Below, piece by piece: positions 49,779 through 60,117 of a stretch of DNA of 64,000 bases. The translations under genes were made by a program, and so were the position numbers. The notes beneath the pieces were generated by a model, which did no database searches, was not told the DNA's origin, and worked only from the letters and a program-made list of their open reading frames with translations. Source of the DNA: Pseudomonadota bacterium (GTDB lineage Bacteria > Myxococcota_A > UBA796 > SXON01); the NCBI GenBank assembly GCA_005778355.1, contig SXON01000145.1, positions 1 through 64,000 of the forward strand, read 5' to 3'. Numbering within the stretch: the first letter of the stretch is position 1; the number at the start of each line of letters is the position of its first letter.

Positions 49779-49908
49779 TGAACTCCCGGCACGCGGACGC
49801 AGAAATCGCCTCCTATTGCACCCGTGGCGGTAGCGCCTCCCCGGGCCTGCGGTGTCGGTAGGGCGTGCGACGGTCGCGGTTGCCAATCCCCCCAAGCCTG
49901 GAGACGCC

Positions 49909-50340
49909 ATGTTCCGCCACTTTCCCCTCGTTGCCCTCTTCGGCAGCGGCTGCATCATCTACGACGACGTCGAGCGCTGCAAGGACCACGAGTGCGAGGA
50001 GGTGGAGGGCGACACCGCCAGCCTCTCCGTGCCCGACCCCAGCTTCTCGATCGACCCCTCCGAGGTCGAGGCCGGGAGCACCTTCATCGCCACGGTGACC
50101 GCCGAGAACTTCGACCTGTCGACCGTCGAGTCGGTGGAGATCTTCGGCCCAGCCAGCCTGCTCGCCGAGCAGAATCGTGGTGAGGAGCTCATTCTCACCG
50201 TGACCGTCGATGCCACGGCACAGGTCGCCGACGAGGTCGACATCCTGCTTCACGTGGGCGCTGACGTCCTGCTCATCGAGGCGGCGATCACGGTGAACGC
50301 CGAGGCCCCCGAGACCGACCCGGACGACGACTGCGAATGA
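49909..50340 (+). CDS. Small acidic exported protein, possible lipoprotein
   Basis: A 143-residue protein. ATG 49909 has GGAG 6 nt before. The N-terminus MFRHFPLVALFGSGCIIYDD is a short hydrophobic signal with a Cys at 15, although GSGC is a weak lipobox. The mature part is acidic with a beta-sandwich look (FSIDPSEVEAGSTFIATVTAENFDLSTVESVEIFG), and three more Cys. It overlaps the ECF sigma factor gene (ATGA), so it is the first gene of the sigma/anti-sigma/caspase operon and could be a sensor or target of that circuit. That role is inferred from position only. Confidence 0.6.
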   Translation: MFRHFPLVALFGSGCIIYDDVERCKDHECEEVEGDTASLSVPDPSFSIDPSEVEAGSTFIATVTAENFDLSTVESVEIFGPASLLAEQNRGEELILTVTVDATAQVADEVDILLHVGADVLLIEAAITVNAEAPETDPDDDCE

Positions 50341-50969
50341 GCGTCAGGGTGTCGATGCCCCCCTCCCCGGCGGCCCAGCGGCCGAGTGGGGAGGCGCGCC
50401 CGGCACTGCGCCTCGTGCCGACCCCTCCCGAATCGAGGGGCAACCCGGTACGTAGCAAAGCCCCCCACGTGAACGGCGACCTCGACATCCCCGCGCTCTA
50501 CCGTCGCTACGGCGACCTCGTGCTGGGTCGCTGCCGAACCATCCTGCGTAACGATGCCGACGCCGCCGACGCGATGCAGGACATCTTCCTGAAACTGCAC
50601 CGGTTCCGCGACTCCTTTCGCGGCGACGCCTCCCCGTCCACCTTCCTCTACCGCATCACCACCACCACCTGCCTCAACCGCCTGCGCTCCCGGCGCCGCC
50701 GCCCCGAGGACCCCGTGGAGGAGCTGCCCCCGCTGCCCTCCACGGAGTCGGTGCTCGACGCGCTCGCCGTGCGCCAGCTGCTCGACGAGCTGGTTGACGG
50801 CGCCGACGAGAAGACCGTCGAGTGCCTCGTCTACCACTACGTCGATGGCATGACGCACGACGAGGCCGGCGAGATGGTCGGCCTCTCCGGCGCTGCCGTA
50901 CGCAAGCGCATCGCGACCTTTCGCGTCGCCCTTCGCGACAACCCGCCTCCCTGGATGGAGGAGACATGA
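50337..50969 (+). CDS. ECF-type RNA polymerase sigma factor
   Basis: A 210-residue extracytoplasmic-function sigma factor. After a 45-residue Pro/Arg-rich N-terminal extension comes region 2 (IPALYRRYGDLVLGRCRTILRNDADAADAMQDIFLKLHRF and SFRGDASPSTFLYRITTTTCLNRLRSRRRR) and region 4 (ECLVYHYVDGMTHDEAGEMVGLSGAAVRKRIATFR, the -35-binding helix-turn-helix). It should redirect RNA polymerase to a small set of promoters, perhaps including its own. It overlaps both neighbours by ATGA, and the next gene is its likely anti-sigma factor. Confidence 0.93.
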   Translation: MSVRVSMPPSPAAQRPSGEARPALRLVPTPPESRGNPVRSKAPHVNGDLDIPALYRRYGDLVLGRCRTILRNDADAADAMQDIFLKLHRFRDSFRGDASPSTFLYRITTTTCLNRLRSRRRRPEDPVEELPPLPSTESVLDALAVRQLLDELVDGADEKTVECLVYHYVDGMTHDEAGEMVGLSGAAVRKRIATFRVALRDNPPPWMEET

Positions 50970-51760
50970 GTCACGTCTCGACCCTGAAACTACACCAGCT
51001 GCGTCTCGGCGAGTTGCCCGGCGACGAGGCCGCGCGCTGCCAGGCCCACCTCGATGGCTGCGCGCTCTGCCAGGCGCGGCTTGGCCACCAGGCCGAGGTC
51101 CGCCGCGACTTCGAGGCCATGCCCATCCCGCTGGCGATCGCTCGTCCCCGGTGGCAGCGGATGGCCCTCGGCGTCGTCCCGCTGCTCGCGGCCGCGCTCG
51201 TGCTCTTTGCGCTCTCGCCCGGCACCCCTCCCAGGAAGGCACCGGTCGACGAGACGCCCGTCACCGAGACACCCGTTCTTGTCGGACCCATCGCCGAACC
51301 CGGCCCCGTCGCGACACCTGCGGCCCCCGTCGCCGTCGAGGTGGTCGCGCCGCTCGCCCCGAAGAAGTCGACGACGCGCACCAAGGGCGCGTCGATGCCT
51401 CGGCTCGAGGCCTGGGTGGAGGCCGGCCAGAGCGAACGCCCGGTGTATCCCGGGGAATCGCTCGGCGCCGGCGCGCGCGTCCAGTTGCGTTACGACGCGC
51501 TCGGCAAGAACTTCGTCACGCTCGCCGGTCGCGACAGTAACGGCGTCGTGGAGGTCTACGCGACCATCGCCGCCACGGCGCGTGGCCTGCAGAGCGCCCC
51601 GTTCGCGCTCACGCTCGACGACAGCAAGGGCGAGCAGGCCTTCTTCGCCCTGCTCTCCGACACGCGCCTCGACCCCGAGTCCGTGAAAATGGCGCTGACG
51701 AAGAACCCGGTGCGAATGGACGGCGCTATCGTGACGTCGCTGGTGCTACGGAAGGATTGA
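50966..51760 (+). CDS. ZAS-type membrane anti-sigma factor with extracytoplasmic domain
   Basis: A 264-residue single-pass membrane protein. The cytosolic N-terminus has the zinc anti-sigma pattern H28-x3-C32-x2-C35 in RCQAHLDGCALCQARL. One helix (MALGVVPLLAAALVLFALSPG) crosses the membrane near residue 75. A Pro/Val-rich stalk follows, then an outer domain of about 110 residues (LEAWVEAGQSERPVYPGESLGAGARVQLRYDALGKNFVTLAG, ...QAFFALLSDTRLD) resembling the DUF4384-type ligand or stress-sensing domain. It should hold the ECF sigma factor inactive until a signal outside the membrane releases it. It is coupled to the caspase-fold gene by TTGA. Confidence 0.82.
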   Translation: MSHVSTLKLHQLRLGELPGDEAARCQAHLDGCALCQARLGHQAEVRRDFEAMPIPLAIARPRWQRMALGVVPLLAAALVLFALSPGTPPRKAPVDETPVTETPVLVGPIAEPGPVATPAAPVAVEVVAPLAPKKSTTRTKGASMPRLEAWVEAGQSERPVYPGESLGAGARVQLRYDALGKNFVTLAGRDSNGVVEVYATIAATARGLQSAPFALTLDDSKGEQAFFALLSDTRLDPESVKMALTKNPVRMDGAIVTSLVLRKD

Positions 51761-53589
51761 GCTTGAGCCTACTCCTCGCCTCCCTCGCCTCCGCAGCGGT
51801 GCTCCGGCACGCCGTGGTCGTGGGTGCCAACGTGGGCGGGAGTGGGCTCGAGCCCCTGCACTACGCCGAGACCGACGCTCAGCGATTCGCCGATCTGCTC
51901 GTGGAGCTGGGCGGCTTCGACCCTGTGTACGTCACGGTGCTCTACGCGCCCTCGGAGGCGGAGCTCAAGGCGGCGCTCCACGCCCACGGCGACACGGCCG
52001 GCAACTTCGACGACGACCTTTTCTTGTTCTACTACTCGGGCCATGCCGACGCACGCGGCTTGCGCATCGGCGCAGACATCTATGATTTCGAGAACTTGCG
52101 AGGTGACATCCGAGGCATGCAGTCGGAGGTGAAGCTCGGGGTGCTCGATGCCTGCCGCTCGGGGACGATCACTCGGCTCAAGGGGGCCCAGCTCAGCCAG
52201 CCCTTCATGGTCGATGACCGCCTGGCCGCCGAGGGCGAAGCCTGGATCACTGCCGCCAGCGCCGACGAGACAGCCCAAGAATCCGACACACTTAGGGGTA
52301 GTTTCTTCACGCACTACCTGATCTCAGGATTGCGTGGCGCCGCAGACAAAGACGACGGCGCGGTGACCCTGCACGAGGCCTACGACTACGCCTACGCGCG
52401 GGTGGTCGACCACACCGGGGGCACCGACGCGGGCGCTCAGCATCCGAACTACGACTACCGCATCAACGGCACCGGCGCGCTCGCGTTGACGCGGGTGGAC
52501 AAGGGCCGCGCCAACGTGACGCTTCCCGCCGAGCTTTCCGGGCAGGTGACCGTCATTCGGTTGCCCGACCGCACGCCGGTGGCCGAGGTGGCGAAGGAGA
52601 GCGGCGCGCCGGTCACCCTCGCGCTGGCCCCCGGGCACTACAAGGTGCGCGTGATGGCGGGCAAGGAGCTACGCGAGGCCGAGGTGATGCTCGCCGACGG
52701 CGCGCGCGTACCGGTGTCGCAACTCGCGCCGATCTCCACGGAAACCGCGAAGGGCAAGGGCGCCGTCTACTTCGACGTGGCCGAGTTCCAGCGCTTCGCG
52801 AAGCAGCACCAGAGCGCCTGGGAACAAGCCGTCAACCCGCGCGATCTGCGCCACTCGCCTCTTGTCGCCGGCGGTATCTCGGCGCTGGTGCCCGGCGGCG
52901 GGCAGATGTTCAACGGCCACTGGGGCAAGGGCGCGCTCTACCTCGCCAGCACCTTCCTCCTCTTTGGCGGTAGCGTCGGCATCCCCGACGACGCCTTCTT
53001 CTCAGGCTCCATCACCGGTCCCGACCCGCTGGCTCTGGGCGCCGCCGCCCTCTACGGGGCCTCCATCGCCGACGCGACTTGGAACGCGAATCGCCTCGAA
53101 GAACGCCGTCCTCGTGGAGGTGGCACCTTCAGCACCTACGCCGGCTGGGATCCCACGGTGGGCGGCACCTCGCCCTACATCGCGGGACTATCGGGCGAGT
53201 GGCTGGTCCACCCCAACGTGGGCATCGGGGTGGATCGCCTGGGCTGGACCCGCAGCGACGAGTCCGAGGCACGCTGGAACTTCGCCAGCCGCGTGAGCTT
53301 CGGCATCAACTGGGAGAAGTTCCGCCCGGCCCTGGCGGTGAGCGCAGGCGGGAGGATCATCGACGAGGGCGCCCCCGGCGGCGAGATCACAACCACCGGG
53401 AGCGCTGGCGACGAGGAAGCAAGCCGCGCGGCCCAGAACCGGCTGGTGGGCGTGATCGGCGCCGGGCTCGAGCTCCGCTGGTACGTGACACCTCGCTACT
53501 TCGTGGAGGCCGGCTTTCGCACCGAGCTCGAGGATGCCTCGCCGCGCTTCATCGGCGGCGGCGGCATCGGCCTGCACCTGGGAGACTGA
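51757..53589 (+). CDS. Exported caspase-family protein with beta-rich C-terminal domain
   Basis: A 610-residue protein that begins with a short signal peptide (MSLSLLLASLASA). Residues 18-235 are a C14 caspase fold: AVVVGANVGG, DDLFLFYYSGHAD with catalytic H96, and LGVLDACRSG with catalytic C133. Next is a PEGA-like beta domain (VTVIRLPDRTPVAEVAKES...LALAPGHYKVRVMAG). A hydrophobic region near residue 385 (GALYLASTFLLFGGSVG) precedes a C-terminal 200 residues of alternating strands that look like an outer-membrane beta-barrel. The start is TTG 51757 within the previous stop; TTG 51763 is an alternative. It is the last gene of the sigma/anti-sigma operon, so it may be switched on by envelope stress. 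Confidence 0.83.
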   Translation: MSLSLLLASLASAAVLRHAVVVGANVGGSGLEPLHYAETDAQRFADLLVELGGFDPVYVTVLYAPSEAELKAALHAHGDTAGNFDDDLFLFYYSGHADARGLRIGADIYDFENLRGDIRGMQSEVKLGVLDACRSGTITRLKGAQLSQPFMVDDRLAAEGEAWITAASADETAQESDTLRGSFFTHYLISGLRGAADKDDGAVTLHEAYDYAYARVVDHTGGTDAGAQHPNYDYRINGTGALALTRVDKGRANVTLPAELSGQVTVIRLPDRTPVAEVAKESGAPVTLALAPGHYKVRVMAGKELREAEVMLADGARVPVSQLAPISTETAKGKGAVYFDVAEFQRFAKQHQSAWEQAVNPRDLRHSPLVAGGISALVPGGGQMFNGHWGKGALYLASTFLLFGGSVGIPDDAFFSGSITGPDPLALGAAALYGASIADATWNANRLEERRPRGGGTFSTYAGWDPTVGGTSPYIAGLSGEWLVHPNVGIGVDRLGWTRSDESEARWNFASRVSFGINWEKFRPALAVSAGGRIIDEGAPGGEITTTGSAGDEEASRAAQNRLVGVIGAGLELRWYVTPRYFVEAGFRTELEDASPRFIGGGGIGLHLGD

Positions 53590-53592
53590 GCC

Positions 53593-54240
53593 TCAGGCCA
53601 CCCGGAGCACCCAGGCCACGCCCGGGCGCGCCCGCGCCAGCTCTACCGAGAGGCCACATCGGGCCGCCATCGCCCGGGCCACCGGCAGGCCCAGCCCCGT
53701 GCCCTCGGCGCGGGTCGTGACGAAGGGCTGGAAGAGCTGAGCCTCCACCTCGGGCGCGAGGCCCGGTCCGTTGTCCTCGATCACGATGAGCTCGTCTTCC
53801 ACGCGGATCGACAAGGATGCGTCGTCGCGACCGCGCAGCGCGTCGAGCGCGTTCTGGCCGAGGTTGACGATCGCCTGCTGGAGGGCCTGGGGCGAGCCGC
53901 GGACGAGCCAGCCGCGGCCGGAGGCGAGATCAAACTGCACGCCGAGACTCTGCGCTCGGTGACGTAGCACCACGGCGGCGCCCTCCGCCGGCGCGCGGGC
54001 GTCGAAGAAGACGTCGGTGGCGCCCGGCGCTCGGGAGAGCTCGGCCCACCCATTGACCAGGGCCTCCAAGACGTCGAGCTGTTCCCGCGCGGCCAGGAGG
54101 TGTTGCGCGGCGGCGTTCGGATCCTTCTCCGCGAGTTGCACGAAGCCGCGAATGGTGAACAGCGGCTGCCGAAGCTGGTGCACCAGCTCCGCGGCCCGCT
54201 GACCGAGCTCGGCGAGGCGCCAGGTGTCGTCCTGCTTCAA
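53593..54240 (-). CDS. Minimal soluble histidine kinase
   Basis: A 215-residue kinase with only the transmitter core. The H-box ELVHQLRQPLFTIRGFVQL carries phospho-acceptor H21. The ATPase domain has the N-box QAIVNLGQNALDAL, G1 IEDNGPGLAP and F/G2 LFQPFVTTRAEGTGLGLPVARAMAARCGL. There is no sensor, PAS, HAMP or membrane segment and no response regulator next to it. The only sensible start is TTG 54240, overlapping the upstream TGA (TTGA); the longer in-frame stretch upstream is antisense-like filler inside the Ig-like gene. It is convergent with the caspase-fold gene, 3 nt apart. Confidence 0.85.
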   Translation of the reverse strand: MKQDDTWRLAELGQRAAELVHQLRQPLFTIRGFVQLAEKDPNAAAQHLLAAREQLDVLEALVNGWAELSRAPGATDVFFDARAPAEGAAVVLRHRAQSLGVQFDLASGRGWLVRGSPQALQQAIVNLGQNALDALRGRDDASLSIRVEDELIVIEDNGPGLAPEVEAQLFQPFVTTRAEGTGLGLPVARAMAARCGLSVELARARPGVAWVLRVA

Positions 54241-57200
54241 GGCGACTCCAACCGGTGGTCGACAGTGACGGTGGACGAGCACGCCGTGCCGATGTTGCCA
54301 TACGCGTCGATCGGCGAGAGGGTGACGGTGTACTCTCCGCTCGCGACGATGATGCCGCTGTCGGCACGGCCATCCCAGCTCATGTCGGGGTCTGTGCCGG
54401 GCGCCCGGTCGCTGCGAATCCTCTGCCCATCGTCGTCGTCGACCTGCAGCCACCACCAGAGCGGCGCGCCGCTGGTCACCGGCGTGATCGTGACGCTGTC
54501 CGACTCCTCGCCCACGCCGTCGTCGCCGTCGGGTCGGATGAGGGCAACGTCATAGGCGCAACCGGCCACGAGCGGGAGCGCATCGGCCACGTTGCCGAAG
54601 CTGGTGGTGAACGCCGAGGCGCTGCCGGTCCAGTCGCCGGCCAGGCGGTTCCCCGCCTCGTCGCGGAAGCCGGTGCCAAGCGCCACCGAGAACGTGCCAA
54701 GGCTGCCATCGAGGGGACTCGCGGGGGTGATCGTCAGGGTCGTTCCGGTCAGCGACTGGGTGGTGCTCTCCGTGCCGGAGGGACCGGTGAGCACCACGTC
54801 GGATGTCGCGCTCTCGAGCATGTCCTCGTCGAAGCTCACCGTGATCGCCGTCACTTCCTCGGTCGCCAAGCCCGTGGGGCTCACCGATACCACGTGCGGG
54901 CGCGCGCTGTCCTGGGTGACCGTCACCGAGCCGTCGCCGTGCCCACCCCCGCTGAAGGAGCCCACCCGCACGGTGGCCTCGCCCGTGTGCCCGGCAGGGA
55001 AGCTCCACGTGAAGCTCCGCTCCCCGCTGCCGTCGAGCGTCACCGCCAGTCCCGCCCCCGTGCTCGTCGCCGTCGTGGCCCCCAGGTCGACCCGCACGTA
55101 GAGCATTTGTCCACTCGCGACGTCACCGTTGCAATCCGTGGCGCTCGCGCTCACCGTGGTGCTCCCCGAGGTGGCCACGCTGGCATCGGCCACCGACACG
55201 CTCACGGGGCCGGTGGGCTCGCCGTCGTCCTCGCCCACCCAGGCGCGCGCCTCGGCTACGCTGCCGCAGCCGTCGGCCTCCACCACCAGGAGGTGCACGT
55301 CACGCGGGCCCGCGCCGCTCCAGGTCCTTGCCACGACAGGATCGATCCCGCGATCACGAACCCCCTCGCTGTCGGCGAAGACGTAGAGCAAGCCCGAACC
55401 CGACGAGGCGCTGCCGTCGAGATCGACGGTCACCTCGTCGCTCGAGAGGCAGGCCACGCGCTCGGCATCGCCGTCGATGACGAGGTCGGCCACGGGCCCC
55501 CCGGTGCACTCGAGGTCGACGACGTCGACCGGTGACGACGCGCCCGTTCGTCCAGCGCCGTCGACCCCACGAAACACGTCGGCGAGGGCGACATCCGTAC
55601 AATCGAATGTCGCGATGGCCTCGCCGCTACTCCAGCTGCTGAGCGTGCTCCCGTCGCACGCCCCGGCGTCGTCGGAAAGCGTGACGGTGCCGGTGTAGCT
55701 GGTGACCGTGTTGCCGAACGCGTCGATGGCGGCCACCACGACCATCCCGCCCTCGCTCACGACGATCCAGCCGCCGGGGTCGACCTCGAAGGCCGACATC
55801 GACCCCGCGCTCACCTCGATGACGGCGCTCTCGCCGAGGGCCACGCCGCCCTGACTTGCGGTGAGCGTGGTGCTTCCCGAACGGGTGACCGTGGCGCTCA
55901 CCACCGCCTCGCCGGCCGCGTCGAGGTTGGCGATGGCGAGGTCGAGGGTGCCGGTCGTGTCGGCGAGGTCGACCACCGGGTCGGACTGGACCAGGTAGGC
56001 GTTGCCGTAGGCGTCGTAGCCAGCGAGCGCGAGGGTGAAGCTCTGCCCAGCGGTGGCGCCCGCCGGCGCCGTGAGCGTGACCTCGGCCAGCGCGCCGTTA
56101 TCCACGTCGATGGGGTCGGGGGCCGCGCCAAGTAGGCTCATTCGCGGCGCAGCGGCGAGCAGCGAGTCGTCCGACGTCGCGACGGTAATGGTGCACGAGA
56201 ACGCGTGCGCCCCGTCGCCGAGCGGCCCGGTCCAGTCGCACTCGACGGTGCCGGTGTCGTCGGAGAACTCGATGGGATCGGCGCCGCCGGGCTCGATTTC
56301 GATCACGTTCGACCAGGCGTCGGTCACCTCCACGTGGACGGCGAAGGGCGCGCCGGCCACCACCGTCGTGTCGAGGGGTCGCACGGTGAGCACGGCGGGC
56401 GCGTCGGGCTGCACCACCACGGGGTCGGAGAAGCCCTCCACGCCGTCGTCGTCGTCGGTGGCGCTCACCACCACCGCCGTGCCGGCGGTGTCGAGGTAGG
56501 TGACGCAGAGCGCCTCGCCGTTGTTGAACTCCGGGCAGCTGGTGCGCGCCTGGTCGAGACCCCCGGCGCTGTCGGCCAGCGAGAAGGTGCCGGCGTAGTC
56601 GAAGAGTGTGTTCTTGAAGGCGTCGACGGCCGTCACCAGCACCAGGAGGGGCTCGCTCCCGGCCGTCACCTCGCTGGGGGTGGCCAGCACGTCGAAAGCC
56701 GCGTGCTCGGCCGGGATCACCTCGAAGGCCTCGCTCTCCACCGACAACGAGGTGTTGAGGGCGTAGAGGTGGTCGACGTCGCAAGCCCGCGTGAGCGTGA
56801 GCTCCACCTCGGCGCTGCCCACCACGTCGACCACTTCGCGCAAATCGTCGTTGCAGTCGTCGGTGAGGAGGATCCGAGCGTAGGTATCGGGGAGTTCGTT
56901 TCCGTACTGGTCGCGGAGCACCAGCCCCACGGTGAACGGCTCGCCCGCCGCCGTGCGGAAGGGAGAGAAGGGCAGCTCGATCTCGACGTCGGCGAGACCA
57001 CCGGCATCCCACGACAAGAGCGTGCTCCCGTCGTCGATCCCATCGTCACCGAGTGCGCGCACGGTGAAGGTGACGTCGTCCGGTTCAGTGCTGAAGGCGA
57101 GCACCTCGGCCGTCCCGTCGGGGTTGAGCATGCCCTCTAGCCCCACCCCTTCTTCGAGCGCGGTCACGCCTTGGAGCGTGCCGCCGTGAAAGCTCACCCC

Positions 57201-57704
57201 GCTCGCGCCGCTCGGCGAGGTGGCCACGATCTCGATGGGCATGGCCTCGGCCACGACGTTGTCCTCCGGGTCGCGGAGCGCCAACGAGAGCGTTGCTGAC
57301 TCGCCGAGGTCGTAGGCCGCGCTTCCGGTGGTCACGACGAGGTGGTCGGCCCGGGTCGACGTGACCCGGAAGGCCTCGGTGAGCATCGCCTCAGCCCCGG
57401 TGGGCGTGGTGACGAAAAGGTCGTAGACGCCTGGCTCGATGCCGGCGGGGACCGTCGCCGAGAGGGACTGGTAGTCCGAGAGCTCGATGCCGCGGAGGCG
57501 CTGGCGCGGTTCGGCCTCGATCCACGCCTCGAACTCGGTGTCCACCGGGTCGGTGGCCCCAAGGTCGAGCGCGGGAAGCAGGTGCTCGCCCGCGATGCTC
57601 ACCCGGGTGTCTTCGCCGGTCCATCCCCGGTCAGGCGTGACCGCGAGCAGCTCCGGCACGAGCCCGGAGGGCGAGCAGGCCGCGAGGATCAGGACCGCCA
57701 GCAT
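54237..57704 (-). CDS. Giant Ig-like repeat lipoprotein
   Basis: An 1155-residue surface lipoprotein. The signal is MLAVLILAAC (lipobox Cys at 10). An IPT/TIG-like domain follows (LLAVTPDRGWTGEDTRVSIAGEHLLP), then about seven filamin/Big-type repeats with FDVLATPSEVTAGSEPLLVLVTAVDAFKN-like and VTLTAPAGATAGQSFTLALAGYDAYGNAYL-like starts. An SbsA-type domain (RPHVVSVSPTGLATEEVTAITVSFDEDM) comes next, then a C-terminal FlgD-like domain (GIIVASGEYTVTLSPIDAYGNIG). It probably forms a long stalk or adhesin. The start ATG 57704 is 1 nt after the upstream TAG. It is the middle gene of a three-gene operon. Confidence 0.85.
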   Translation of the reverse strand: MLAVLILAACSPSGLVPELLAVTPDRGWTGEDTRVSIAGEHLLPALDLGATDPVDTEFEAWIEAEPRQRLRGIELSDYQSLSATVPAGIEPGVYDLFVTTPTGAEAMLTEAFRVTSTRADHLVVTTGSAAYDLGESATLSLALRDPEDNVVAEAMPIEIVATSPSGASGVSFHGGTLQGVTALEEGVGLEGMLNPDGTAEVLAFSTEPDDVTFTVRALGDDGIDDGSTLLSWDAGGLADVEIELPFSPFRTAAGEPFTVGLVLRDQYGNELPDTYARILLTDDCNDDLREVVDVVGSAEVELTLTRACDVDHLYALNTSLSVESEAFEVIPAEHAAFDVLATPSEVTAGSEPLLVLVTAVDAFKNTLFDYAGTFSLADSAGGLDQARTSCPEFNNGEALCVTYLDTAGTAVVVSATDDDDGVEGFSDPVVVQPDAPAVLTVRPLDTTVVAGAPFAVHVEVTDAWSNVIEIEPGGADPIEFSDDTGTVECDWTGPLGDGAHAFSCTITVATSDDSLLAAAPRMSLLGAAPDPIDVDNGALAEVTLTAPAGATAGQSFTLALAGYDAYGNAYLVQSDPVVDLADTTGTLDLAIANLDAAGEAVVSATVTRSGSTTLTASQGGVALGESAVIEVSAGSMSAFEVDPGGWIVVSEGGMVVVAAIDAFGNTVTSYTGTVTLSDDAGACDGSTLSSWSSGEAIATFDCTDVALADVFRGVDGAGRTGASSPVDVVDLECTGGPVADLVIDGDAERVACLSSDEVTVDLDGSASSGSGLLYVFADSEGVRDRGIDPVVARTWSGAGPRDVHLLVVEADGCGSVAEARAWVGEDDGEPTGPVSVSVADASVATSGSTTVSASATDCNGDVASGQMLYVRVDLGATTATSTGAGLAVTLDGSGERSFTWSFPAGHTGEATVRVGSFSGGGHGDGSVTVTQDSARPHVVSVSPTGLATEEVTAITVSFDEDMLESATSDVVLTGPSGTESTTQSLTGTTLTITPASPLDGSLGTFSVALGTGFRDEAGNRLAGDWTGSASAFTTSFGNVADALPLVAGCAYDVALIRPDGDDGVGEESDSVTITPVTSGAPLWWWLQVDDDDGQRIRSDRAPGTDPDMSWDGRADSGIIVASGEYTVTLSPIDAYGNIGTACSSTVTVDHRLESP

Positions 57705-57705
57705 C

Positions 57706-60117
57706 CTAGTACAGTACCCGGTAGCCAGCGGCGCCGAACAGGCCGCCGGCATTGCCCGACAATGTGACCGCACCCGCTGGGGCGGTGAAGAGCAAGTAGC
57801 CAGCCTCGAAATATAGCTCTGCCTGTCCGAGGCGATAGCCGGCCTCGCCGTGGAGGCGGGCGCCCGGCGGCGCGAGTCCAGGACCAGACAACTCGCCACC
57901 CTCACCGAAGTCGGCGCTCAGCGCGTAGGGCACCATCACCACGGAGATGCCGGCGCCGAGGTTCCACCGGCTGTCGCGCTGGGCGGCGACGACCCCCACG
58001 TCGACCGGGAAGAAGCTGAGCTCGACGGGGACGGACGACTCGCTCACCTCGTCGGTCACGCTGGTGGAGAGCCCGTAGATCCCGGCACCCACGCGCAACG
58101 CGAGGCTCGGGAAGGGGAGCCGGTGCTCCACCGCGAGCCAGGCCACCGGGCTCTCGACGGCGCCGAGATTGCTGAGGTAGCCAACCCCTGCCCCGGCCGA
58201 GCCCCGGACCGGCCGGGGGACGACGTCGAGGGTGGTGGCCACCGACGTGCCGCCCGCCGTCGCGGTGAGGCGGACCGCTCGCGCGCCCGTGCCCGGTCCC
58301 GGGGTGAACGTGGCCACCACCGTGCCGTCCGGGCGCACGGTCGCGACAGACACGGCGCCCTCGCTGGCCTCGATGACCACCGGCTCGTCGGTGACGAGCG
58401 CGCCCGCCGCGTCGAGCATGCGCACCCGCACCGTGGCGGTGGCGCCGGGTGCCAGGGCCAGCGTGGCAGGGTCGGCCTCGAGAAAGAGCTGCCGCACTCG
58501 CCCGGAGCGGATGGGCAAGGCGAGCCGCGTGGAGAGGTCGGTGGCGCCGGGAGCCGCCGCCGCGAGGCAGTCGCGGGCCGGTGCACCGGGGCCCGCCAGC
58601 GCCTCGCCCTCGGCATGGCCGCTCCGAGCGCGCACGCGCTGGCCCGCGCTGTTGGAAAGTTGGACGTGGGAAAAACCACGGGCGTCGGTGGCCTCGGGCG
58701 GGGAAAGCGAGGTCTCCGTGCCCTCCGGTCCCACGGCAGACAGGGCGACCTTCACGCCCGCCAGTGGACGGTCGCGCGCGTCGAGCACCCGCGCCACCGC
58801 GACGCCCTTTTCGCTCCCGCAAAGTGCCACGCGGTGCGGCGCGCCGTTGCCCGGGGGACGGTCCCACGTGGCCAGGATCTCGTCGCCACCGTGGGGTGCA
58901 GCGTCGCGACCGTCGTATTCTGCTCGGATGGCATCGGAGAGGAGCCGCAACTGGAGCTGTCCCCGGGCCGCGCTCAGCTTCACCTCTGCCGGGGACAGGC
59001 GCTCTCCCAGCGCGTCGGCAAGAGTCACCTGGACCTCGGCCAGGGGGAAATCGGTCGACAGGACCTCGGGGTAAACCCGCACGCCGATGGCCGTGGGCAC
59101 GGGCGCGTCCATCGGTACGCGCAGCGTCGTCGACACGTCGCCGATCGCACAGCTCACGCCCACGTCGCTGAGGCCGGGCGCCGGCACCACCGACCACGCC
59201 CAGCTCGCGCCATCCATGTCCTCGGCGGCGTGGACGAGCGCGCCGGCGCGGCAGGCGGGGGCCTCCGCCACGGCGTGTCCTCGGCTGTCCCAGGCACCGA
59301 CGAACAGCCCGCCGCGGCGGGGAATGGCCGCCAATGTGGGTCGCGACACGCTGGGGATGGGGTTGGAGAGGCGCTGGGTGTTGCCGAGGTCGTCGGACAC
59401 TGCCAGTTCGTAGGCCGTCTCGCCCGGGTAGGCGTCGAAACTCACGGTAGCGGCCCCAGAACTATCAGCGATAAACGGACCATAGTTTCGACCGCTGACC
59501 CGAATCTGGAGGCGCGAGCCGGGCTCCGCGGTCACCGTACCGCCGTGCCTCGCGCGCAGGCGGACCGCCGCCCAGGCCGGCGCGAGCCCCGGGAGGCGCT
59601 GGTCGAGCACGCCCACCGCCACCACCCGCGCCATGCGCTCCGGCCCCGGGCTCACGCGCACCACGAGCCCCGCAGCCACCCGCTCCACGCCGGTGACGGA
59701 GCCTTCCGACACGACGATCTCCACTTCGGACGGCGCCGGCGGGTTCGTGCCGCTGAACAGCACGTCGAAAGGCTGCCCGGCGGGGACCACCAGGCTGTCG
59801 GGCTCGGCGATCAGGGTGGGAACGGGCCGAGCGCGCACGCTGATCGGCAGCGCGAGCGTGGCCCGGCCGCCCTCGGTGAGCTCCAGGCGCGCCGGGCCGG
59901 GCTCGGCCGGGGCCCGCCAGAGGACCACCGTCTCGCCGCTGGCGTCGCGCGTGGGCGTGCCTGCGAGGCTGCCCGCGCTCACGCGGAAGCTCGCGCCGCC
60001 CAGCGCCCCGGCACGCACCCGCAGCTCCGCGATCTCGCCCGGGAAGGGCATCCCCCCTGGCGCGTAGACGACCGGCCAATCGTCGGCCAACGCGAGCTTC
60101 GCGGCGAACCAGAACAC
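57706..60117 (-). CDS. Outer-membrane beta-barrel protein with Ig-like repeats
   Basis: An 803-residue exported protein. GTG 60117 gives a short signal (FWFAAKLALA-DD), 9 nt after TAGGCT and with no SD, so the mRNA is probably leaderless. The next 600 residues hold Ig-like and Big_1/intimin-like domains (VVLWRAPAEPGPARLELTEGG, LSAARGQLQLRL, VKVALSAVGPEGTETSLSPPEATDARGFSHVQL). The final 190 residues are amphipathic strands ending ...GGLFGAAGYRVLY, with a C-terminal aromatic, as in outer-membrane barrels. It may anchor or export the Ig-like stalk of the next gene. It is the first gene of the operon that ends with the histidine kinase. Confidence 0.78.
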   Translation of the reverse strand: MFWFAAKLALADDWPVVYAPGGMPFPGEIAELRVRAGALGGASFRVSAGSLAGTPTRDASGETVVLWRAPAEPGPARLELTEGGRATLALPISVRARPVPTLIAEPDSLVVPAGQPFDVLFSGTNPPAPSEVEIVVSEGSVTGVERVAAGLVVRVSPGPERMARVVAVGVLDQRLPGLAPAWAAVRLRARHGGTVTAEPGSRLQIRVSGRNYGPFIADSSGAATVSFDAYPGETAYELAVSDDLGNTQRLSNPIPSVSRPTLAAIPRRGGLFVGAWDSRGHAVAEAPACRAGALVHAAEDMDGASWAWSVVPAPGLSDVGVSCAIGDVSTTLRVPMDAPVPTAIGVRVYPEVLSTDFPLAEVQVTLADALGERLSPAEVKLSAARGQLQLRLLSDAIRAEYDGRDAAPHGGDEILATWDRPPGNGAPHRVALCGSEKGVAVARVLDARDRPLAGVKVALSAVGPEGTETSLSPPEATDARGFSHVQLSNSAGQRVRARSGHAEGEALAGPGAPARDCLAAAAPGATDLSTRLALPIRSGRVRQLFLEADPATLALAPGATATVRVRMLDAAGALVTDEPVVIEASEGAVSVATVRPDGTVVATFTPGPGTGARAVRLTATAGGTSVATTLDVVPRPVRGSAGAGVGYLSNLGAVESPVAWLAVEHRLPFPSLALRVGAGIYGLSTSVTDEVSESSVPVELSFFPVDVGVVAAQRDSRWNLGAGISVVMVPYALSADFGEGGELSGPGLAPPGARLHGEAGYRLGQAELYFEAGYLLFTAPAGAVTLSGNAGGLFGAAGYRVLY

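Follow-up and report, generated by a model that had tools for sequence, protein, structure and literature searches.

A conserved ECF sigma, anti-sigma and caspase operon of Myxococcota with a common K/R-G motif at candidate caspase cut sites

We analysed a four-gene operon at positions 49909-53589 (forward strand) of a 64,000-nucleotide window of contig SXON01000145.1 (C128 in our set), which belongs to a 6.6 Mb draft genome of 252 contigs from a bacterium classified in Myxococcota_A. The operon encodes a lipoprotein-like protein (P0001), an extracytoplasmic function (ECF) sigma factor (P0002), a membrane-bound zinc anti-sigma factor (P0003) and a caspase homologue predicted to be exported (P0004). 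In these proteins, a basic residue and a glycine directly after it are nearly invariant at three sites: as RxK-G in the juxtamembrane linker of the anti-sigma factor, as TRxK-G in a loop of the caspase and as K/R-G in the linker preceding the C-terminal barrel of the caspase. With some reservation, we favour the reading that the caspase, exported and tethered by its barrel, processes itself and is also the enzyme that first cuts its own anti-sigma factor, and that the sigma factor so released feeds back on the operon.

The candidate first cut site in the anti-sigma factor is K140-G141 (RTK-G; 51383..51388). G141 was the sole invariant column in an alignment of 50 related anti-sigma factors, and lysine preceded it in at least 90% of them. 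K/R-G was present in 69/69 triads, three of which aligned one column off (L060, L091 and L115 were left out of this set due to bad anti-sigma calls). Our main statistic was a shuffle test, which preserves the composition of the linkers but not their relatedness. Among linkers less than 50% identical (L153 and L167 left out), 78/82 contained K/R-G compared with 28.6 expected by per-linker shuffling, and 200,000 draws gave at most 47. K-G itself occurred in 73 of the same 82 linkers, and the next dipeptide in 33. At 92 non-redundant anti-sigma sites, the residue before the candidate cut (P1) was K in 84 and R in 5, P3 was R in 62 and P1' was G in 89; K and R make up 1.4% and 5.2%, respectively, of the remainder of the linker.

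The first candidate self-cut site in the caspase, K142-G143 (TRLK-G; 52180..52185), lies in the loop between the p20-like and p10-like parts, nine residues after the catalytic cysteine (C+9). K142-G143 was present in 150/150 aligned members. All 93 non-redundant loops had K-G (93/93), and 78 of them also had R at P3. Thus R at P3, K at P1 and G at P1' recur in both the caspase loop and the anti-sigma site. Cleavage at the second candidate self-cut site, K334-G335 (52756..52761), would detach the barrel from the caspase. G335 was found in 147/150 members (3 gaps), and among 69 sequences the residue before it was K 42 times and R 27 times (K/R-G in 69/69); in 91 non-redundant pre-barrel linkers, K (48) or R (43) was followed by G in every case (91/91). 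In the AlphaFold model of P0003, K140-G141 ends a linker (predicted local distance difference test, pLDDT, ∼ 54-71), directly before the outer domain. The P0004 model contained four stretches with pLDDT below 50: residues 144-154 adjoin K142, residues 329-339 contain K334 and the other two lie in the barrel part.

P0004 (51757..53589; TTG start) has the caspase fold of peptidase family C14 (PF00656, 2.6e-15). Its model aligned with metacaspase 4 over 208 residues (Z 23.9, root-mean-square deviation (rmsd) 2.4). The sequence alone gave no match against PDB; the family profile did match. The dyad residues His96 (52042..52044) and Cys133 (52153..52155), both picked out in an initial annotation of this DNA, were invariant in 150/150 aligned family members. 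So was D131, in keeping with a basic-specific pocket. From its family, P0004 would be expected to cut after Arg or Lys: C14 enzymes other than caspases prefer these residues at P1 (PMC5756287), and the metacaspases characterised so far cleave behind them. In the model, the caspase core is followed by a beta-sandwich (residues 231-319; 52447..52713), a two-helix hairpin (residues 368-445; 52858..53091) and an eight-strand barrel (residues 455-608; 53119..53580). The hairpin region was DUF5683-like in 21/27 close relatives (E up to 0.1). Structural comparison rows (VIA table) of the model span residues 12-248 only, and the assignment of the even-stranded barrel comes from Foldseek, which matched it to OprF, NspA, Ail and OmpA. 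The barrel-like part of the C-terminus described in the initial annotation was therefore borne out; the PEGA-like part gave no Pfam match, the sandwich being PEGA-like by eye. At two loci, L071 (4134-7528) and likewise L143, two tandem caspase genes stand behind one sigma/anti-sigma pair.

The anti-sigma factor P0003 (50966..51760) is of the class I zinc type, with an outer DUF4384-like, immunoglobulin (Ig)-like domain. Its N-terminal anti-sigma domain carries the zinc motif HLDGCALC (Hx3Cx2C). The zf-HC2 profile matched it with E 3.6e-4 and 21.0 bits, under the cut-off of 22.2, and with 23.1 bits, over the cut-off, in the genome search. A profile of 50 P0003 relatives matched the solved anti-sigma domains of ChrR and DdvA and, weakly, that of RsiW. 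A predicted membrane helix (residues 62-82; 51149..51211; model and hydropathy) and an outer beta domain (residues 147-263; 51404..51754; model) make P0003 a predicted single-pass anti-sigma factor with an extracytoplasmic domain, in agreement with the initial annotation, which had proposed the zinc motif, the helix and the outer domain. The Ig-like matches of the outer domain were of intermediate quality (best Z 9.7, rmsd 3.0, 101 aligned), and therefore we drew no function from that fold. DUF4384 was detected in the outer part of 14/50 related anti-sigma factors, the window P0003 not among them. Since 23 cyanobacterial orthocaspases also carry DUF4384, as an accessory domain (PMC8283722), its presence on these anti-sigma factors supports a pairing of the outer domain with the caspase. 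Gene overlap and conservation suggest that P0003 binds and inhibits P0002.

P0002 (50337..50969) contains sigma regions 2 and 4 only, as in ECF factors. Sigma70_r2 matched above its cut-off (2e-17), r4_2 slightly below the Pfam cut-off (1.2e-5), and TIGR02937 scored 71.6 bits (cut-off 42.9). All four open reading frames (ORFs) lie on the forward strand, and start and stop codons overlap at each junction (ATGA, ATGA and TTGA). Both the single operon and the ECF assignment had been read correctly in the initial annotation, which left undescribed the first gene, the promoter-like motif and the cut-site-like motifs. The first gene, P0001 (49909..50340), was identified as an ORF with tblastn homologues; it or a homologue was present in 15/79 sources of our first sample, window included. 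The lipobox is degenerate by eye in the window copy, and at L059 the homologue is located 3' of the caspase.

Conservation of the triad was one of the checks proposed in the initial annotation, and the triad proved to be conserved. P0004 had matches in 68/93 genomes searched, its own included. In the regions around the best matches, a same-strand ECF sigma gene lay within 3.5 kb upstream of 72/85 caspase ORFs; 7 of the other 13 caspases lie at contig ends with less than 1 kb. Beyond this first count, a diverged sigma and anti-sigma pair was found upstream of the caspase at L007, and an anti-sigma factor together with a sigma factor turned up in the L108 and L112 regions. The sigma stop and the anti-sigma start overlapped by four bases in 63/72, a count biased by picking the anti-sigma starts nearest to the overlap. 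A second sample came from named genome contigs: of 234 relatives, the 80 best loci were retained, with 81 caspases; it overlaps the first, and the two are not additive. Here, sigma and anti-sigma genes were upstream of the caspase in 57, an anti-sigma gene only in 7, both downstream in 7 and neither in 10. The seven caspases with a downstream pair carry the same motifs (L173, L182, L183, L190, L196, L197 and L198). By record titles, relatives beyond Myxococcota include Acidobacteria, Spirochaetes, Fibrobacter and Gemmatimonadaceae. Cultured relatives with the operon are Nannocystis pusilla and N. poenicansa (L194 and L200). Three myxobacterial-type operons (L128, L133 and L140) are on contigs titled as a Klebsiella pneumoniae metagenome-assembled genome, and these titles look wrong.

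In the window's own genome, 4/5 PF00656 proteins were in such triads, compared with 25 Sigma70_r2 matches in 6.6 Mb; the association is thus beyond chance. Over 53 triads, distances correlated at 0.85 between sigma factor and caspase and at 0.75 between anti-sigma outer domain and caspase, and none of 2000 permutations was as high. Such correlations show joint inheritance, not contact. A second, diverged caspase subfamily (L007, L276, L280 and L281), with the motifs STHG or SAHG and A[TS]CHSG, also stands behind ECF sigma and anti-sigma genes. Its caspase loop is 12 residues longer, and K-G is at C+21 instead of C+9 in 4/4.

The initial annotation placed the caspase outside the cytoplasm, and the leader sequences of the family together with the C-terminal barrel support this prediction. 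It also gave P0004 a signal peptide. A hydrophobic leader is indeed present, of 13-14 residues from the TTG start, but it is weak in the window protein, with no Lys or Arg, and clearer in many relatives. Very short, uncharged leaders are found throughout the window's clade. A hydrophobic stretch precedes the core in 65/69 caspase N-termini, and in only 22 of the 65 do the first eight residues include Lys or Arg. Because the window copy's own leader is short and uncharged, we base its probable export on the family leaders and the barrel. An aromatic last residue is the signal by which the barrel assembly machinery (BAM) recognizes outer-membrane barrels. Such a residue ends 39/78 of the more distant caspases (contig-truncated ones left out of the count) and 1/23 in the window's clade; P0004 itself ends in Asp. 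Since the aromatic residue is wanting in the window protein, we regard an outer-membrane anchor, as modelled, only as likely.

A Gibbs search upstream of 12 operons yielded the promoter-like motif GGTAGCG-N16-GTGTC, with an information of 14.3 compared with 10.8-11.1 in four shuffles. The window has an exact match at 49829..49856 (forward strand). With at most one mismatch, the motif was found upstream of 19/26 close-clade operons and 0/42 others. Some of the 19 are from near-identical species; three of the seven misses have too little upstream sequence, and L025, where the match lies elsewhere, was counted as a miss. This distribution suggests that the operon's own sigma factor reads the motif, and hence autoregulation. 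Genome-wide, the motif with at most one mismatch occurred at 69 sites (29 forward and 40 reverse), fewer than with a reversed control (44 and 46), so that no regulon can be read from it. There were three exact copies in the genome, one of them that of this operon. Another (G000:C201:17947-17974; L325) precedes a small secreted-type ORF, a candidate second target of the sigma factor, and the third, on C155, precedes a lipoprotein-like ORF. At L059 and L060, a further exact copy follows the caspase closely and stands before a lipoprotein gene or another exported-type gene, which suggests a small regulon split over two units. After the operon, on the opposite strand of the window, a histidine-kinase-like ORF (53593-54456) and a very long ORF with Ig-like repeats (54237-57905; 1222 residues) were noted by eye.

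We propose the following sequence of events. The caspase would be exported and kept at the outer membrane as a zymogen by its inserted barrel. An envelope signal would trigger two self-cuts, one behind K142 that separates the p20-like part from the p10-like part and one behind K334 that frees the caspase from the barrel. The freed enzyme would then cut the inner-membrane anti-sigma factor behind K140 (RTK-G), in the linker that joins the membrane helix to the outer domain. This first cut would lead to regulated intramembrane proteolysis by an M50 site-2 protease and release of the ECF sigma factor, which in turn would stimulate its own operon through GGTAGCG-N16-GTGTC. The window's genome encodes an M50 site-2 protease, as do all 14 control genomes, and its presence is hence uninformative. 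Export of the window copy and insertion of its barrel, the cleavages and their order, the signal and the reading of the promoter-like motif by P0002 are all put forward as parts of the model. That the caspase could cleave the anti-sigma factor was one of several options offered in the initial annotation, and the common K/R-G motif favours it over the others; control by envelope stress is a guess.

Several points weigh against this proposal. Cleavage is proposed from sequence and predicted position. The signal peptide of the window caspase is very short and uncharged, and its C-terminal Asp is not what an outer-membrane barrel would be expected to have. Ten of the 81 caspases of the second sample had no sigma or anti-sigma gene in the fetched DNA, several of them with ∼ 4-5 kb of room, and they kept the motifs. 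K/R-G is wanting in 4/82 anti-sigma linkers (L148, L152, L157 and L164), the caspases of which keep it. Similarly, in the diverged subfamily, K-G was seen by eye in 3/4 anti-sigma linkers and not in that of L280, the caspase of which retains its motif. Among 14 unrelated caspases, 5 had R-G at C+7 or C+8, and the loop motif may therefore be a general C14 feature. Finally, the anti-sigma controls were few and mixed. The first set gave seven candidate anti-sigma factors, two of them usable and neither with K/R-G. In the second set, K/R-G was present in 6 of 11 not near a caspase; five of the 11, all with the motif, belong to caspases with a downstream sigma pair (L108, L112, L173, L183 and L197), and the other six, one of them partly masked, had it once. 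A third set came from the window's own genome and consisted of the partners of sigma factors not linked to a caspase, provided that they had a helix and an outer part; R-G lay within 64 residues of the helix in L287 and L303 and was absent near the helix in L288, L294, L307 and L309. In a DUF4384 control, from which several wrong-strand rows were left out, most readable matches in relatives were themselves caspase-linked anti-sigma factors; L311 alone looked stand-alone and lacked the motif, too few to count.

Other explanations were considered. The caspase could be an output only: a different protease would sense stress and cut the anti-sigma factor, and the sigma factor would induce a caspase whose targets would be other envelope proteins or prey, or which would take part in cell death. 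The caspase gene does lie 3' of a promoter-like motif fitting the sigma factor, and a gene in third place of an ECF operon is often a target. However, this explanation, which we consider unlikely, does not account for the RxK-G common to the anti-sigma linker and the caspase loop, and none of the four operon proteins had a Pfam match to a death, lysis or immunity family. A role as death effector, which we kept within this alternative, was rejected as a candidate of its own: PADLOC gave only a weak 'caspase' match (E 0.0047), and the Pfam matches of the four proteins included no death-domain partner. For cell death and for cleavage of surface proteins, both raised in the initial annotation, we found no evidence here.

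The K-G positions might instead be structural or binding motifs rather than cut sites. The loop motif is invariant without exception (150/150), like a structural residue, and the R-G of 5/14 unrelated caspases lies near the same place. Yet all three sites are in or beside low-confidence linkers, and in the second subfamily the spacing from the cysteine shifts from 9 to 21 residues with K-G kept, which makes this explanation rather improbable to us. We give still less credence to a trypsin-like or housekeeping protease that would cut all three K/R-G sites, activating the caspase and inactivating the anti-sigma factor in parallel. The motif would fit any protease preferring a basic P1 residue, and the caspase could be its substrate; however, caspases self-process in the p20/p10 linker (PMC5756287), and K142 has the position of such a site, shortly after the catalytic cysteine.

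If the proposed first cut by the operon's caspase is correct, the caspase has a signalling role other than death, and an operon-encoded kind of site-1 protease is added to ECF regulation. Substrates of bacterial caspase homologues are mostly unknown, MaOC1, which cuts an antitoxin, being one tested case (PMC7935541); here, sequence alone names a candidate substrate and residue. The proposal would also help to explain the retention, in myxobacteria, of several metacaspase genes next to sigma factors, for which the operon section of a 2012 survey gives no mechanism (PMC3501461). More tentatively, and with doubt prevailing, one may picture the tethered caspase as a sentinel: trouble at the outer membrane would make it cut its tether, cross the periplasm and cut the anti-sigma factor at the same K-G motif, with the DUF4384-like outer domain as docking partner. 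This would amount to a bacterial caspase cascade that spans both membranes and has transcription as its output, present in several phyla besides Myxococcota.

The association of sigma and metacaspase genes in myxobacteria has been in print since that 2012 survey, which reported sigma-70 genes in 4/5 Myxococcus xanthus metacaspase operons and such operons in Myxococcus, Anaeromyxobacter, Haliangium, Sorangium, Ralstonia and Fibrobacter (PMC3501461). As here, where 4/5 PF00656 proteins are in triads, sigma factor and metacaspase share one operon. The operon section of the survey differs in that it names no anti-sigma factor, cut-site motif or promoter, and the survey discusses extracellular location only for metacaspases in general. 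Titles and abstract beginnings yielded nothing on anti-sigma factors with metacaspases, on a caspase as anti-sigma site-1 protease or on a metacaspase with an outer-membrane beta-barrel, in a coverage outside which lie most subscription literature and the main ECF classification paper. Caspase-clan genes also stand beside ECF sigma genes in the EACC2/TRADD-N caspase systems (PMC8195603) and with ECF54, where they encode CHAT proteins (PMC8999054); the relevant passages of these two reports describe no membrane zinc anti-sigma factor with an exported protease. The nearest functional precedent is the type III-E CRISPR CASP system, in which Csx29 cuts Csx30, the inhibitor of the ECF-like CASP-sigma (PMC10028731). 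In both cases, the inhibition of an ECF-type sigma factor by an anti-sigma-type protein is lifted through a caspase-like protease, the cleavage here being predicted. CASP differs in having an RNA-triggered complex, a CHAT protease and a non-membrane inhibitor, whereas the protease here is a PF00656 caspase that has a leader and a barrel, and the anti-sigma factor is a membrane protein; the Pfam matches of the four operon proteins included no CHAT or CRISPR family, and the pair of CHAT protease and Cas7-11 typical of type III-E CASP was thus absent from them. Regulated intramembrane proteolysis of anti-sigma factors is also known from DegS/RseA and RsiW/RsiV, named in PMC10028731. These systems are alike in having a single-pass anti-sigma factor with an outer domain and expected site-1 and then site-2 cuts. 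They differ in the enzyme: site-1 cleavage is made by DegS or signal peptidase in those systems, whereas here it would be made by a caspase encoded in the operon itself.

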